From positions 124,001 to 188,000 of the forward strand of contig NZ_JABVED010000002.1 in assembly GCF_014323725.1 (NCBI RefSeq): 64,000 nucleotides of DNA. Reading direction: 5' to 3'. Below are positions 585 to 64,000 of the stretch, piece by piece. The notes under the pieces are model-generated. The model worked only from the letters and a program-made list of their open reading frames with translations. It was not told the origin of the DNA and made no database searches. Numbering within the stretch: position 1 is the first letter of the stretch; each line of letters starts with the position of its first letter. Source of the stretch: Actinokineospora xionganensis (GTDB lineage: Bacteria > Actinomycetota > Actinomycetes > Mycobacteriales > Pseudonocardiaceae). A program made the translations under genes and the position numbers.

Positions 585-1477
585 TTGTCCTCCTCAGACT
601 TCCGCTGCGACGGCGGCAACTGGAAGCCTGCCTTCTCAGCGTCCTCGGCGGTGGCGAACCACACCTCGGCAACGGTCCGGTCGTAGAAAGCGGTGCCCGG
701 CACGTGGTACAGCATCGAGTCGGCGTTGCCCTTGATCGGGAAACCCTCCGGCTGCGAGCCGTCCTCCAGCGCGTCGTGGCTGCCCGCACCGAAGCGCGCG
801 CCGCCGACGAGGCCCTGGACCTCGGAGCCCTTGGCCGAAGCCTTGGCGCCGCGGGTCGGGGCGGACAGGAACGCGTCGAGCGCGGCCTTGGTGAACACGA
901 TGTCGTCGTTGACGAGCACGTCATAGGTGTTCAGCTGGTCCGGCGCGATCACGTGCACGTTCTGCAGGTTGCGCACCGACACCCAGGCGACGTCCTCGTC
1001 ACGGGTCAGCACGACCAGAACGCGCTTGGCGTCGGTCAGCGTGGCCAGCAGGTTGCGGGCGGTCTTGGTCGAGGGCTTGTCGCCGTCCACCAGACCGGTC
1101 ACCACGTGCACCTGGCCGGAGCGGGCCCGGTCGGAGAGGGCACCGCGCAGGGCGGCGGCCTTCATCTTCTTGGGGGTCCGCTGGGCGTAGTCGCGCGGCT
1201 GCGGGCCGTGCGAGATACCGCCACCGACGAACTGCGGGGAACGCGTCGAGCCCTGACGGGCGCGGCCGGTGCCCTTCTGGCGGTACGGCTTGCGGCCACC
1301 GCCGGAGACCTCGCCACGAGTCTTCGTCGAGTGCGTGCCCTGGCGGGCCGCGGCGAGCTGCGCCGTGACCACCTGGTGCATCAGCGGAATGTTCGCCTGC
1401 ACGTCGAAGATCTCTGCGGGAAGCTCGGCAGTGCCGTCGGTCTTGCCCGCGGGGGTCTTGATGTCAATGCTGGTCAT
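581..1477 (-). CDS. rplD: 50S ribosomal protein L4 with C-terminal sunset-like domain
   Basis: L4 is a large-subunit assembly protein that reaches into the exit tunnel. Residues 1 to about 215 are a normal L4, with the tunnel loop motifs [20 protein letters not shown] and [11 protein letters not shown]. At 298 residues the protein is about 75 longer than a typical L4. The extra C-terminus has a Gly/Glu-rich linker and then a compact module (about 243-287) containing [19 protein letters not shown] and AEDAEKAGF. The same pattern occurs three times in the membrane protein at 62081-63841. The frame is open throughout, so this is a true fusion. ATG at 1475-1477 overlaps the rplC stop by one base. 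Confidence 0.96.
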
Positions 1478-58740: not shown

Positions 58741-58985
58741 TAAATTTGGGGTTTCCGGACCACCCTGTGGACACTCGGACCGCGATCGCAGTCTCCCGAC
58801 TGTGATGTGTAGCGCGTTGCGAGGGACCCGCCGATTTCGATGCCTACCGTGGAAGGCGAAGTGGTCGGCGACCAGGCCGGGTTGAGCAATCGAACGCCAG
58901 CTTCGCCGGGGGCGGAAGACTACCCTTGGCAGTAGCGGACGGCACTGGCCAAGCACGCTGTCAGGAGAGAGGGATCGGCGAGTTC
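58741..58985 (+). promoter_or_regulatory. korA leader region
   Basis: About 245 non-coding bases ending in AGGAGAGAGGG some 18 bases before the korA ATG. A 31-codon frame (MPTVEGEVVGDQAG..., 58840-58935) lacks a good binding site and is probably not translated. No further structure is clear. Confidence 0.4.
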
Positions 58986-60896
58986 ATGAGCACAAGTGTG
59001 GACGGCGACGTGGCCGGAGGCGCTGACTCCGCCGGGTCTTCCCGTCAGGCCGGGACCAAACTCGACCGAGTCGTGATCCGGTTCGCGGGCGACTCCGGCG
59101 ACGGTATGCAGCTGACAGGTGACAGGTTCACCTCAGAGGCAGCCGCGTTCGGCAACGACCTGTCGACGATGCCCAACTTCCCCGCCGAGATCCGCGCCCC
59201 CCAGGGCACGATCCCCGGTGTCTCCAGCTTCCAGGTGCACTTCGCCGACTACGACATCCTGACCCCGGGCGACCGGCCGGACGTGTTGGTCGCGATGAAC
59301 CCGGCGGCGCTCAAGGCGAACATCGCCGATCTGCCCGCGGGCGGGACGCTGATCGTCAACACCGACGAGTTCACCAAGCGCAACCTGACCAAGGTCGGCT
59401 ACGCGGCGAACCCGCTGGAAGACGACTCGCTGTCGTCCTTCCAGGTGCACGAGGTCGCGATGGCCACGATCACCCAGGGCGCGCTGGCCGAGACCGGCCT
59501 GGGCAAGAAGGACGCCGAGCGCTGCAAGAACATGTTCGCGCTGGGGCTGCTGTCGTGGATGTACCACCGGCCGACCGAGGGCACCGAGGCGTTCCTTCGC
59601 GAGAAGTTCGCCCGCAAGCCCGACATCGCCGAGGCCAACGTCCTCGCGTTCCGCGCGGGGTTCTACTACGGCGAGACCACTGAGGCCTTCGCCGTCACCT
59701 ACCAGGTCGCACCCGCCAAGCTGCCCGCGGGAACGTACCGGCAGATCACCGGCAACACCGCGCTCGCGTACGGCATCGTCGCGGCCGGGGTGCAGTCGAA
59801 GCTGCAGGTGCTGCTGGGCACGTACCCGATCACCCCGGCGTCGGACATCCTGCACGAGCTGAGCAAATACAAGCAGTTCGGCATCACCACGTTCCAGGCC
59901 GAGGACGAGATCGCGGGCATCTGCGCCGCGCTCGGCGCCTCCTACGGCGGCGCGCTGGGTGTCACCTCGACGTCCGGCCCGGGTGTCGCGCTGAAGTCGG
60001 AGACCATCGGCCTCGGTGTGATGACCGAACTCCCGCTGCTGGTCATCGACGTGCAGCGCGGTGGCCCGTCCACCGGTCTGCCGACGAAGACCGAGCAGGC
60101 CGACCTGCTGCAGGCCATGTACGGCCGCAACGGCGAGTGCCCGGTCCCGATCATCGCCCCGCAGTCCCCGGCGGACTGCTTCGCCGCGGCGGTCGAGGCC
60201 ACCCGGATCGCGCTGAAGTACCGCACCCCGGTGCTGCTGCTCTCGGACGGCGCCATCGCCAACGGCTCCGAGCCGTGGTTGGTCCCGGAGCTGGACACGC
60301 TGCCCGACTTGACGGTGGAGTTCGCCACCGAGCCCAACGCCCCGGACGGGTCCGGCGAGTTCTGGCCGTACCTGCGCGACCCGGAGACGCTGGCCCGCGC
60401 GTGGGCACTGCCCGGCACCGCCGGTCTGCAGCACCGCATCGGCGGTCTGGAGAAGCAGGACGGCACCGGCAACATCTCCTACGACCCGGACAACCACGAC
60501 AAGATGGTCCGGCTGCGTCAGGCCAAGATCGACGGCATCGACGTGCCCGACATCGAGGTGGACGACCCGTCCGGCAAGGCGCGGGTGCTGGTGCTGGGCT
60601 GGGGCTCGTCCTACGGCCCGATCGGCGCGGCGGCGCGGCGGGTGCGCAAGCTCGGCCACGCGGTCGCCCAGGCGCACCTGCGCCACCTGAACCCGTTCCC
60701 CGCCAACCTGGGTGAGGTCCTGCGGAGCTACGACAAGGTCGTCGTTCCGGAAATGAACCTCGGCCAACTGTCGTTGCTGCTTCGTGGGCGGTACCTGGTC
60801 GACGTGATCAGCTACACCAAGGTCGCGGGCCTGCCGTTCATGGCCGAGGAACTCCAGAACGTCCTCACGGACATCGTGAAAGGGGTCGACGCATGA
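58986..60896 (+). CDS. korA: 2-oxoacid:ferredoxin oxidoreductase, fused gamma-alpha subunit
   Basis: A 636-residue subunit of the oxygen-tolerant 2-oxoglutarate (or related 2-oxoacid):ferredoxin oxidoreductase, which makes acyl-CoA and reduced ferredoxin. The gamma domain (about 28-200, RFAGDSGDGMQLTGDRF) is fused to the alpha domain (LLGTYPITPASDILHEL, FQAEDEIAGICAALGASYGG). Fused KorA is typical of actinobacteria, where it can replace or supplement 2-oxoglutarate dehydrogenase. Start ATG 58986. Its stop overlaps korB by four bases. Confidence 0.9.
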   Translation: MSTSVDGDVAGGADSAGSSRQAGTKLDRVVIRFAGDSGDGMQLTGDRFTSEAAAFGNDLSTMPNFPAEIRAPQGTIPGVSSFQVHFADYDILTPGDRPDVLVAMNPAALKANIADLPAGGTLIVNTDEFTKRNLTKVGYAANPLEDDSLSSFQVHEVAMATITQGALAETGLGKKDAERCKNMFALGLLSWMYHRPTEGTEAFLREKFARKPDIAEANVLAFRAGFYYGETTEAFAVTYQVAPAKLPAGTYRQITGNTALAYGIVAAGVQSKLQVLLGTYPITPASDILHELSKYKQFGITTFQAEDEIAGICAALGASYGGALGVTSTSGPGVALKSETIGLGVMTELPLLVIDVQRGGPSTGLPTKTEQADLLQAMYGRNGECPVPIIAPQSPADCFAAAVEATRIALKYRTPVLLLSDGAIANGSEPWLVPELDTLPDLTVEFATEPNAPDGSGEFWPYLRDPETLARAWALPGTAGLQHRIGGLEKQDGTGNISYDPDNHDKMVRLRQAKIDGIDVPDIEVDDPSGKARVLVLGWGSSYGPIGAAARRVRKLGHAVAQAHLRHLNPFPANLGEVLRSYDKVVVPEMNLGQLSLLLRGRYLVDVISYTKVAGLPFMAEELQNVLTDIVKGVDA

Positions 60897-61951
60897 CCGC
60901 GATTGATCTTGGGCTGCCCGGCCTCGCGGGGGTGCCGACGACCGACGAGCCGCAGAAGGCCAAGGACTACAAGTCCGACCAGGAAGTCCGCTGGTGCCCC
61001 GGCTGTGGCGACTACATCGTGCTCAACGCGGTGCAGTCGTTCCTGCCGACACTGGGCCTCAAGCGGGAGAACATAGTCTTCGTCTCCGGCATCGGCTGCT
61101 CCTCACGGTTCCCGTACTACATGAACACCTACGGGATGCACTCGATCCACGGCCGCGCCCCGGCCATCGCGACCGGCCTGGCCACCGCGCGCCCGGACCT
61201 GTCGGTGTGGGTCGTCACCGGCGACGGCGACTCGCTGTCGATCGGCGGCAACCACCTGATCCACACGCTGCGCCGCAACGTGAACCTGAAGATCCTGCTG
61301 TTCAACAACCGGATCTACGGCCTCACCAAGGGCCAGTACTCGCCGACGTCGGAGCCGGGCAAGGTCACCAAGTCGACCCCGATGGGCTCACTGGACCACC
61401 CGTTCAACCCGGTGTCCCTGGCCCTGGGCGCCGAGGCGACGTTCGTCGGCCGGGCACTGGACTCCGACAAGGTCGGCCTCACCGACGTCCTGCGTCAGGC
61501 GGCGGAACACCGGGGCTCGGCACTGGTGGAGATCTACCAGAACTGCCCCATCTTCAACGACGGCGCCTTCGACGTGCTGAAGGAGCCGGGCGAGGCCGAG
61601 CAGCGCCTGATCAACCTGGAACACGGCAAGCCCATCCGCTTCGGCGCGGAAGGCGAGTACGGCGTGGTCCGGTCGGGCTTCGGGTCGCTGGAGGTCGCGA
61701 AGGTCAGCGAGGTGGGCGAGGAAGCCCTGGTGGTGCACGACGCCCACATCGAGGACCCGTCCTACGCCTTCGCGTTGTCGCGTCTGTCCACTCAGGACCT
61801 GAGCCACACCATCACGGGTGTCTTCAGGTCGGTACGCCGGGACACCTACGACGATCTGGCCCGGGCGCAGGTGGCGCAGGCCGTGGAGAGCAAGCCCGCA
61901 GACCTGCGAAGCCTGCTGCACGGCAAGGACACCTGGACCATCGCACCTTGA
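60893..61951 (+). CDS. korB: 2-oxoacid:ferredoxin oxidoreductase beta subunit
   Basis: A 352-residue beta subunit carrying thiamine diphosphate and an iron-sulfur cluster. WCPGCGDYIVLNAV, SGIGCSSRFPYYMNTYG, GDGDSLSIGGNHL and LLFNNRIYGLTKGQYSPTS are diagnostic. It follows korA with a four-base overlap (ATGA) and ends at a strong terminator. Confidence 0.92.
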   Translation: MTAIDLGLPGLAGVPTTDEPQKAKDYKSDQEVRWCPGCGDYIVLNAVQSFLPTLGLKRENIVFVSGIGCSSRFPYYMNTYGMHSIHGRAPAIATGLATARPDLSVWVVTGDGDSLSIGGNHLIHTLRRNVNLKILLFNNRIYGLTKGQYSPTSEPGKVTKSTPMGSLDHPFNPVSLALGAEATFVGRALDSDKVGLTDVLRQAAEHRGSALVEIYQNCPIFNDGAFDVLKEPGEAEQRLINLEHGKPIRFGAEGEYGVVRSGFGSLEVAKVSEVGEEALVVHDAHIEDPSYAFALSRLSTQDLSHTITGVFRSVRRDTYDDLARAQVAQAVESKPADLRSLLHGKDTWTIAP

Positions 61952-62080: not shown

Positions 62081-63841
62081 CTAGCTCTTCTCGCTGCGGC
62101 GCTTGTTCCAGGCCGTGAACCCAGCCTGCTCCGCATCCGAAGCGGTCTTGAACCAGACCTCAGCCCGAGTCCGTGGGTAGTACGGCGACTCGGTCGTGTG
62201 GAACAGCATCGAGTCCGCGTTCCCCTTGATGGTGAACTCATCCGAAGGCGCCGATCCATCAGCCTTCGGATTCGCCGAGTTCGGCCCGAACGGTCCCTCA
62301 GGCACCCGAGCGACCGCCTGCCGCGGGACCTCCGTCTGACCCCGTTCCGCACCACCGACGCGGTTCCAGGGCCGGAATCCCGCCGCCTCCGCCTCTTCCG
62401 CGTCGCGGAACCAGACTTCGGCTTTGGTCACCGAATAGAACGCTGACTCCTCGGTGTGGAACAGCATGGAGTCGACGTTGCCCTTGACCTTGAACTCTTC
62501 CGCGGGGGCGGTGCCGTCGGCCTTCGGCTTGGCCGAGCCCGCGTACTCGCCCGCCTCCCACGTCGGCTGTGCCACGGCGGGCCGCGCCTCACGCTTGGTG
62601 CGAGACCACGGCGTGAAGCCCGCGCGCTCGGCGTCGGCGGCGGACTTGAACCAGACCTCCGCCTTGGTGCGGCCGTAGTACGGGGATTCGGTGGTGTGGA
62701 ACAGCATCGAGTCCGCGTTGCCCTTGATGGTGTACTCGGGGCCGGGGGACGCCCCACCGGGTCCGGGACGCGCCGATCCCGGGCCGTACGGCTCCTCGAT
62801 GGCAGGCGCCTCCGCGACGGCCGTGGAGGTGGCGAACATCGGGGTGCCGCCCTTGCCCGCGTCCGCGTCCGTGTCCGACTCCGGTTCCACTGGGAGGCCG
62901 CGGTCAGCGCCGGAACCAGTGGAACCGACGACGTGCGAGCCGAGGCCCGTGTCGGAACTCTGGTCGGACCCGTTGCCGGAACCCTTGTCGGACTCCGGGT
63001 CGGCGACCGGACCCGTGCCCGCGAGGCCGTCGGCGCCCGAGCCGGTGGCCACGCCCGTGGCGGCGGCACCGGCGATCGGGCCGGAACCCGCGAGGGTGCC
63101 CGGACCGCTGTCCTCGTCGGTCGGCGAGCCGTTCTTGTCGGTCGTGCCCGCCCGCCGTGCCGCCATCCCGGCCGCCGCGCCCGCGGCCGCGCCGCTGGTC
63201 GCGGAGCCGCTCACGTTCAGGTCGCTCACGGCTTCCTCGTCGGACATGGCGGGGAGGGTGTCGCGGTTGCCTTCCTCCATCGAGGGCGGCGGGGCGGCCA
63301 TCCACTCCGTCTTGCTCGAGTCGTCCTCTTCGACGAGGTGGTGCTTGGCCGTGGTGGCGGCGGTGGCCGTCTCCTTGGCTGAGTCCTCGTCCTTGTCCTC
63401 CATCTTGCCCACCGCGGCGCCGCCCGCGGTGGCGAGGCCTGCCGCGCCGAGCATGGCGGCCGGGTCGGACTTGGGCTCGTCGTCCAGTGAGCCCTTCAAC
63501 GTGCCGGAGCGACCCGTGTCGTCGAGCGTCTGGACCGGGATGCGGCCGGTCGGGGTGTCGTCGCCCGGAGTGTCGTCGGCGCGCAGGGTTCCGGTGCGCT
63601 CATCGTCGTCGAGCGAGCCCAGTGCGGAAGCACGTGGCCGTGCCGAGGCGCTCGCCTTGTCCGTGCTCGCGGCGCGCTTGGGCGAGCGGTCGCTGTCCTT
63701 GACGGCGGGGCCACCGATGCGTTCCTCGGTCACCTCGACCTTGGGCTTGCGGAAGAACCGCTGAACCAGCCAGGTGAAAAGCGCACCCAGCAGAAAGGAC
63801 AGCAGCAACCAGAGCCACACCTGCCCGAAGAGATATTTCAT
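62081..63841 (-). CDS. ArfC-like membrane protein with three sunset-type domains
   Basis: A 586-residue protein. The N-terminal membrane helix (FGQVWLWLLLSFLLGALFTW) is followed by a basic stretch and about 300 residues of acidic, Gly/Ala/Asp-rich low complexity. Three nearly identical 48-residue modules follow at about 367-414, 447-494 and 533-580 with [23 protein letters not shown] and AEAAGF/AERAGF. These match the C-terminus of ribosomal L4 at the other end of the window. Three copies in one protein is unusual. In mycobacteria ArfC is encoded next to the OmpA-like channel ArfA; here the next gene upstream is OmpA-like, so a role in that system is likely. Confidence 0.8.
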   Translation of the reverse strand: MKYLFGQVWLWLLLSFLLGALFTWLVQRFFRKPKVEVTEERIGGPAVKDSDRSPKRAASTDKASASARPRASALGSLDDDERTGTLRADDTPGDDTPTGRIPVQTLDDTGRSGTLKGSLDDEPKSDPAAMLGAAGLATAGGAAVGKMEDKDEDSAKETATAATTAKHHLVEEDDSSKTEWMAAPPPSMEEGNRDTLPAMSDEEAVSDLNVSGSATSGAAAGAAAGMAARRAGTTDKNGSPTDEDSGPGTLAGSGPIAGAAATGVATGSGADGLAGTGPVADPESDKGSGNGSDQSSDTGLGSHVVGSTGSGADRGLPVEPESDTDADAGKGGTPMFATSTAVAEAPAIEEPYGPGSARPGPGGASPGPEYTIKGNADSMLFHTTESPYYGRTKAEVWFKSAADAERAGFTPWSRTKREARPAVAQPTWEAGEYAGSAKPKADGTAPAEEFKVKGNVDSMLFHTEESAFYSVTKAEVWFRDAEEAEAAGFRPWNRVGGAERGQTEVPRQAVARVPEGPFGPNSANPKADGSAPSDEFTIKGNADSMLFHTTESPYYPRTRAEVWFKTASDAEQAGFTAWNKRRSEKS

Positions 63842-63852
63842 GGTCTGGTCTC

Positions 63853-64000
63853 CTAAAGGACGACGATTTCGACCCGGCGATTGGCCGCCTGGCCTGCTGC
63901 GGTGTTGTTGGGCGCCACGGGCTTGGTGCTGCCGTAGCCCTTGGCGGTGATGCGGTCCGCGGCGACCCCGAGCTGGGCGAGTCGCGATTGGACGGTGGCG
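63853..64000 (-). CDS. OmpA-family protein, C-terminal part
   Basis: The last 48 codons of a protein continuing past the window edge. It reads RLAQLGVAADRITAKGYGST, then PVAPNNTAAGQAANRRVEIV and VL before TAG (63853-63855). The A-x-N-R-R-V-E-I motif is the peptidoglycan-binding signature of OmpA C-terminal domains. With the downstream ArfC-like gene this suggests an ArfA/OmpATb-type porin. Start, length and membrane part cannot be seen. Confidence 0.85.
   Translation of the reverse strand, partial: ATVQSRLAQLGVAADRITAKGYGSTKPVAPNNTAAGQAANRRVEIVVL

Follow-up and report, generated by a model that had tools for sequence, protein, structure and literature searches.

A C-terminal sunset domain of ribosomal protein L4 that recurs in a predicted membrane protein of Actinokineospora xionganensis and in further hosts of related bacteria

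The DNA we analysed (the window) is a stretch of 64,000 nucleotides from Actinokineospora xionganensis. Its minus strand carries rplD at positions 581–1477, a single intact frame that encodes a ribosomal protein L4 of 298 aa. Residues 18–202 are the ordinary L4 part (TIGR03953, 229.1 bits, cut-off 130.1). The initial annotation had marked a C-terminal module at 617–751 (residues 243–287), and this module proved to be a true sunset domain: the domain model NF051437 matches residues 248–286 with 76.1 bits (cut-off 27), and taking the AlphaFold model into account we place the domain at residues 243–289 (611–751, minus strand). The full-length protein matches NF051449 (440.9 bits, cut-off 385; profile positions 1–284 of 285), so that a "50S ribosomal protein L4, sunset domain variant" is already catalogued in NCBIfam. 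This L4 resembles the model along its whole length, and we saw no difference at the protein level. No function is stated in the model line; full-text searches of open-licence PMC papers returned a single, unrelated paper for the sunset domain and none for the names of the sunset models.

Structure prediction, as the initial annotation had proposed, gave a pLDDT of 87.9 for a 61-residue sunset piece of L4. In the whole-protein AlphaFold model, the blocks spanning residues 231–290 reached 92–97 and those of the L4 core were mostly above 90 outside the tunnel loop, while the linker between core and sunset domain (residues 209–225; 803–853, minus strand) stayed below 50. The L4 sunset is predicted from these models to be an independently folding domain with a disordered linker before it. 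The same C-terminal domain is present on uL4 of Cutibacterium acnes (8crx chain e, 83.6 bits). That extension has been described as solvent-exposed, without density in the 70S map and likely disordered (PMC10085706); the passages in question do not name the domain. A domain that folds independently behind a disordered linker, as modelled here, would fit its absence from the C. acnes map.

The final L4 codons contain GAGGAGGA (588–595, minus strand), which is the probable Shine-Dalgarno sequence of rplW, whose GTG start follows three bases on, at 584. The L4 of congeners without the sunset domain has a short tail whose SEEDK residues are unchanged or almost so; that these bases here hold GAGGAGGA in front of the rplW GTG would explain why the SEEDK end is kept with or without the domain. 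The L4 extension is likewise present in frame in congeners G014 and G007 and in named relatives, and this bears out the earlier view of a real fusion. The annotation had held that L4 proteins lacking the module in close relatives, together with a frameshift in the present gene, would speak against it. Such proteins do exist, in 13 of the 16 genomes of the genus (one of the 13, G003, has an L17-sunset), but the frame here is not shifted. The sunset domain of L4 is therefore a variable cassette and not an artefact.

A second gene of the window, at a distance of 61 kb (62081–63841, minus strand), encodes a predicted membrane protein of 586 aa with three sunset domains, located at 62603–62731 (copy 1), 62363–62491 (copy 2) and 62105–62233 (copy 3), all on the minus strand. 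Copy 2 also matches Pfam Ada_Zn_binding (24.2 bits, cut-off 23). The L4 module is indeed common to this protein, as had been claimed: NF051437 matches it in three stretches with 223 bits in total, and a search of the L4 tail against its own genome recovered the three copies at E-values of 2.6e-14, 3.7e-13 and 2.0e-12 with 57–59% identity, which rules out chance similarity. The sole predicted transmembrane segment (residues 8–26; 63764–63820, minus strand; hydropathy 2.19) is followed on its C side by five K/R and three D/E residues (frame L016:2084-4363, where it occupies residues 182–200). Because the basic residues come after the segment, the C-terminus is predicted to be cytoplasmic, and ribosomes could therefore meet the three copies there.

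Eleven bases upstream of the triple-repeat gene lies an ArfA/OmpATb-like gene with BON and OmpA domains (L006:184-1383; NF051434, 83.5 bits, cut-off 81; PF04972; PF00691). Its 3' end occupies 63853–64000 (minus strand) and the rest is outside the window. The order along the minus strand is a long one-copy sunset protein, the ArfA/OmpATb-like protein and the triple-repeat protein. The triple-repeat protein had been called ArfC-like, and this setting beside an ArfA/OmpATb-like gene agrees with that description, but the N-terminal domain of ArfC (NF051455) is absent among matches listed to E=1; in L051 it scores 66.8 bits (cut-off 32). The ArfC_sunset score of 207.3 bits (cut-off 100) is a sum over the three copies, and its best stretch covers profile positions 83–160. 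With NF051433, the sunset variant of ArfC, the protein has in common a predicted membrane protein with a C-terminal sunset domain beside an ArfA/OmpATb-like gene; it differs in its three copies and its 586 aa, the model having 160 positions. Two genes at 58926–61951, which we take to be the alpha and beta subunits of a 2-oxoacid:ferredoxin oxidoreductase, are convergent with the triple-repeat gene.

Six sunset copies in the whole genome exceed the cut-off. Besides the L4 copy and the three of the triple-repeat protein, L17 carries one, and so does a second long predicted membrane protein encoded close to the triple-repeat gene but outside the window (C12:189170-189289). The L17 copy (C12:108009-108125) shares 88% identity with the L4 tail across 58 aa; it also lies outside the window, where it was not visible, and is new here.

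We then looked at the hosts of the domain in other genomes. The sample comprised 80 regions fetched from surveys of genomes of the class and of relatives (including all 61 class-survey regions outside this genome), 79 named loci that are the best 79 of at least 574 confirmed stretches, further survey loci and 13 more regions. Counting frames that share their last 120 residues once, and assigning host classes by short sequence patterns, we obtained 224 distinct sunset frames: 49 L17, 47 L4, 13 L22, one L20, one S3, one NusA and 112 others. These numbers follow the searches and are uneven, and they exclude loci L001-L015 and L018-L045. For L22, S3, L20, NusA and NuoC, one or two hosts each were verified with Pfam or NCBIfam models. 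The matches were TIGR01044 for L22 (132.3 bits), TIGR01009 for S3 (299.2 bits), TIGR01953 for NusA (346.8 bits), TIGR01032 for L20 (L205, 155.2 bits; this protein passes the L20 cut-off but reaches 203.7 of the 375 bits required by the L20-sunset model) and PF00329, NADH dehydrogenase subunit C, for the NuoC frame (118.4 bits). The sunset variants of NCBIfam that appeared in these scans were those of L4, L17, L20, S2 and ArfC, and none appeared for L22, S3, NusA or NuoC. The sunset domain on L22, S3, L20, NusA and a NuoC frame of relatives is new here. By sequence pattern, no S2 host was found among the 224 frames, and the name of the NCBIfam model alone points to S2. We discarded an ATP synthase gamma host (L153) as a likely assembly chimera because its frame starts inside an arginine-repressor domain.

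Most L4, L17, L22, S3, L20, NusA and NuoC hosts bear the domain at their C-terminus or close to it; in the ribosomal and NusA frames it is followed by a median of 10 and a maximum of 40 residues. When 110 ribosomal or NusA sequences were compared by hhalign with 55 other cysteine-less sunset sequences, the probability was 99.9. The hosts that are not membrane proteins belong to large assemblies or interact with them.

Several of these loci show more than one copy. A contig of an Ilumatobacter MAG (L191:1892-6746) has the domain on three neighbours, L4, L22 and S3. The NusA protein with a C-terminal sunset (L258:2615-4135) belongs to genome G377, where L4 and L22 bear copies too. The NADH dehydrogenase subunit C frame (L265:3641-6277) bears the domain after about 300 residues and continues for 120 more; its genome, G362, also has an L20 copy. 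Two domains stand in tandem on Herbihabitans L17 (L305:1447-2349; L135:5473-6375), and a membrane array of G670 has four copies. In a Tsukamurella record that is labelled a plasmid but may be chromosomal, the domain is part of an annotated L17 gene (NZ_LR134464.1:210482-210667).

The Ada metal-binding domain binds zinc through four cysteines. Profile comparison and a weak fold match suggest that the sunset domain is a relative of it without the cysteines (PF02805; structures 1u8b and 1wpk). All 113 ribosomal and NusA copies differ from the Ada domain in holding no cysteine, and an Ada-type zinc site is therefore missing; a PF02805 scan of L4 gave no hit. These 113 copies are acidic, with a mean net charge of -3.0, which argues against RNA or DNA binding. 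The 63 frames classed as other and containing cysteine, a mix of the CF/CY-type variant and RYC-type membrane proteins, have a mean net charge of +1.5. In the class of G377, many genomes encode a short cysteine-bearing variant protein with the pattern CPxxxPIKAK...DRCY (most of L232-L256, L259 and L262), and this variant could be a link between Ada-type and cysteine-less domains.

We searched for the domain in samples of different breadth. It matched in 29 of 296 genomes of a phylum sample (25 over the cut-off), in 33 of 148 genomes of the class of G377 (31 over the cut-off, mostly the CF/CY-type variant) and in 45 of 246 genomes of a sample of the present class; in the family of this bacterium, 126 of 140 genomes had it over the cut-off. 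Among 14 well-known genomes used as a control, the sunset model exceeded its cut-off in one, Bacillus subtilis, and the L4- and L17-sunset models in none. Enterococcal records labelled as plasmids (H5-H9) contain a weakly similar stretch, in one case under a gene annotated as a nuclease. Spread by viruses found no support in the viral contigs searched, where none of 20 pattern-matching stretches was confirmed. Within the genus, 15 of 16 genomes have some sunset copy. Three have the L4 and L17 copies and the triple array, one has the L17 copy alone, and in 12 neither an L4 nor an L17 copy was seen, so the role is not an essential one. The three genomes that combine L4, L17 and array may represent one lineage, because two are near-identical and the third is unplaced by the tree.

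How can one domain serve such different hosts? We tentatively read it, at a little under even weight, as a modular docking tag on a flexible arm, with one shared partner in the cytoplasm that may sit at the membrane. This reading gains weight because relatives put the same domain on other ribosomal proteins and on a transcription factor. The modelled fold, the C. acnes map, the acidic charge of the ribosomal copies, the purifying selection, the cytoplasmic side predicted for most membrane-linked copies and the concurrence of longer arrays with ribosomal copies (see below) speak for it as well; the class sample, the two-copy array of G200, the genus members in which no L4 or L17 copy was seen and the hosts of ambiguous topology speak against it. 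Since the ribosomal host varies by lineage while the domain stays alike, selection appears to be for a sunset on the ribosome, not on one particular protein. The sunset of L4 or L17, on its flexible arm, would hold ribosomes near the common partner. Copies on ribosomes and copies on membrane proteins would be bound by one and the same receptor or through contact between sunset domains, and the array beside ArfA would gather ribosomes at the membrane of this bacterium. The initial annotation had proposed that the shared domain indicates membrane tethering of ribosomes or a common binding partner; the data are compatible with such a partner, and tethering through the sunset domain is possible. 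As the domain is also found on NusA and on the NuoC frame, "ribosome-membrane link" may be too narrow a description. A tether between ribosome and membrane fits as a special case in this bacterium and not as a rule.

A more direct version of the tether, in which sunset domains of the ribosome pair with those of membrane proteins and the triple-repeat protein anchors ribosomes at the ArfA-like protein's membrane patch, seems unlikely to us. It draws on the presence of ribosomal and triple-repeat copies in one genome and on the predicted cytoplasmic position of the latter. Other membrane-linked copies are likewise predicted, from the hydropathy of frames read stop to stop, to be mostly on the cytoplasmic side. 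Most long ArfC-like hosts resemble the triple-repeat protein in having one segment near the N-terminus and then basic residues. Seventeen frames were judged by eye to be of LGFP type, one of them (L079) with confirmation from Pfam; in 15 of the 17 the sunset domain is preceded by two hydrophobic segments, of which the first, at the N-terminus, resembles a signal peptide. In several short ArfC-like proteins of congeners (e.g. L120 and L123), the basic residues before the segment equal or outnumber those after it, and no clear segment was found in L100, in L121 or in the second-gene proteins of Actinophytocola-type genomes (L294, L298 and L300). Direct binding would also agree with the arrays of three to four copies, which among the family matches listed all occur in genomes with a ribosomal copy (G000, G007, G014, G668 and G670). 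This coincidence may reflect few events, because two of the five genomes are near-identical and the genus tree is unresolved. Genome G200 has a two-copy array (L051) and no ribosomal copy.

The class sample weighs against direct binding and does not support a general pairing of ribosomal with membrane copies, let alone an obligate one. Among its 246 genomes, with hosts again classed by short sequence patterns, 19 have an L4 or L17 sunset (14 L4, 7 L17, 2 both) and 28 have the domain on other proteins outside the CF/CY-type variant. With the RYC type put with the membrane-type copies, both kinds occurred together in four genomes (Fisher p=0.25). Fifteen of the 19 ribosomal-copy genomes thus lack a membrane-type sunset (11 without any other type, 4 with the CF/CY type only), and 24 of the 28 membrane-type genomes lack a ribosomal copy. 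Moreover, direct binding leaves the NusA and NuoC hosts unexplained.

The domain might instead mark ribosomes and other assemblies for a protease, a storage factor or a hibernation factor; ribosomal proteins, NusA and the NuoC frame are all hosts that such a turnover or dormancy signal could serve. We nevertheless regard this as decidedly unlikely, because the membrane arrays and the LGFP-type hosts have no obvious need of such a signal.

Another explanation is that the domain is a passenger, a cassette that is passed on by recombination among the copies already present and hardly affects its host protein. Its presence or absence inside an L4 tail with a conserved SEEDK end is what one would expect of a passenger, as is the run of 61 identical bases shared by the L4 and L17 sunset DNA of this genome. 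The family points in the same direction: all 6 genomes with an L4-sunset are among the 19 with an L17-sunset (of 140; p 2.9e-6 ignoring kinship). This nesting fails in the class, where 12 of 14 L4-sunset genomes have no L17-sunset. However, the domain is under clear purifying selection. Over 41 codons in 14 genomes, pN was 0.15 and pS 0.39 for the L4 copies (pN lower in 91 of 91 pairs), and 0.12 and 0.32 for the L17 copies (90 of 91 pairs); the sunset domain is therefore kept for its protein sequence. L4–L17 identity was 0.80 within genomes (n=14) and 0.79 between genomes (n=182), so the copies are not generally homogenised, and general concerted evolution was rejected. A mere passenger is thus very improbable.

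Finally, an rRNA-binding element for ribosome assembly or stability could account for the 111 of 224 frames (a biased sample) that are L4, L17, L22, S3 or L20, but it is highly implausible given the acidic nature of the domain, its presence on non-ribosomal hosts and the lack of density reported in the cited passages on the C. acnes ribosome (PMC10085706).

The docking tag thus remains our tentative preference. It can be extended into a general scheme of actinobacterial tagging, in which a cysteine-less Ada-like module on loose ends of ribosomal proteins, NusA and complex I and on cytoplasmic tails of envelope proteins would let one receptor gather all of them, and in which, in this bacterium, the three-copy array beside ArfA would make a membrane patch the gathering place. 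We consider this broader scheme doubtful; if true, it would mean that translation, transcription and envelope machinery are brought to one place. For C. acnes, the domain offers an alternative reading of the uL4 extension that the cited passages report as disordered (PMC10085706).

To our knowledge, there is no standard handle for placing ribosomes in the cell in bacteria. With sunset domains on ribosomal proteins, NusA and membrane tails, ribosome placement in actinobacteria would become directly testable by the deletion of about 50 residues.
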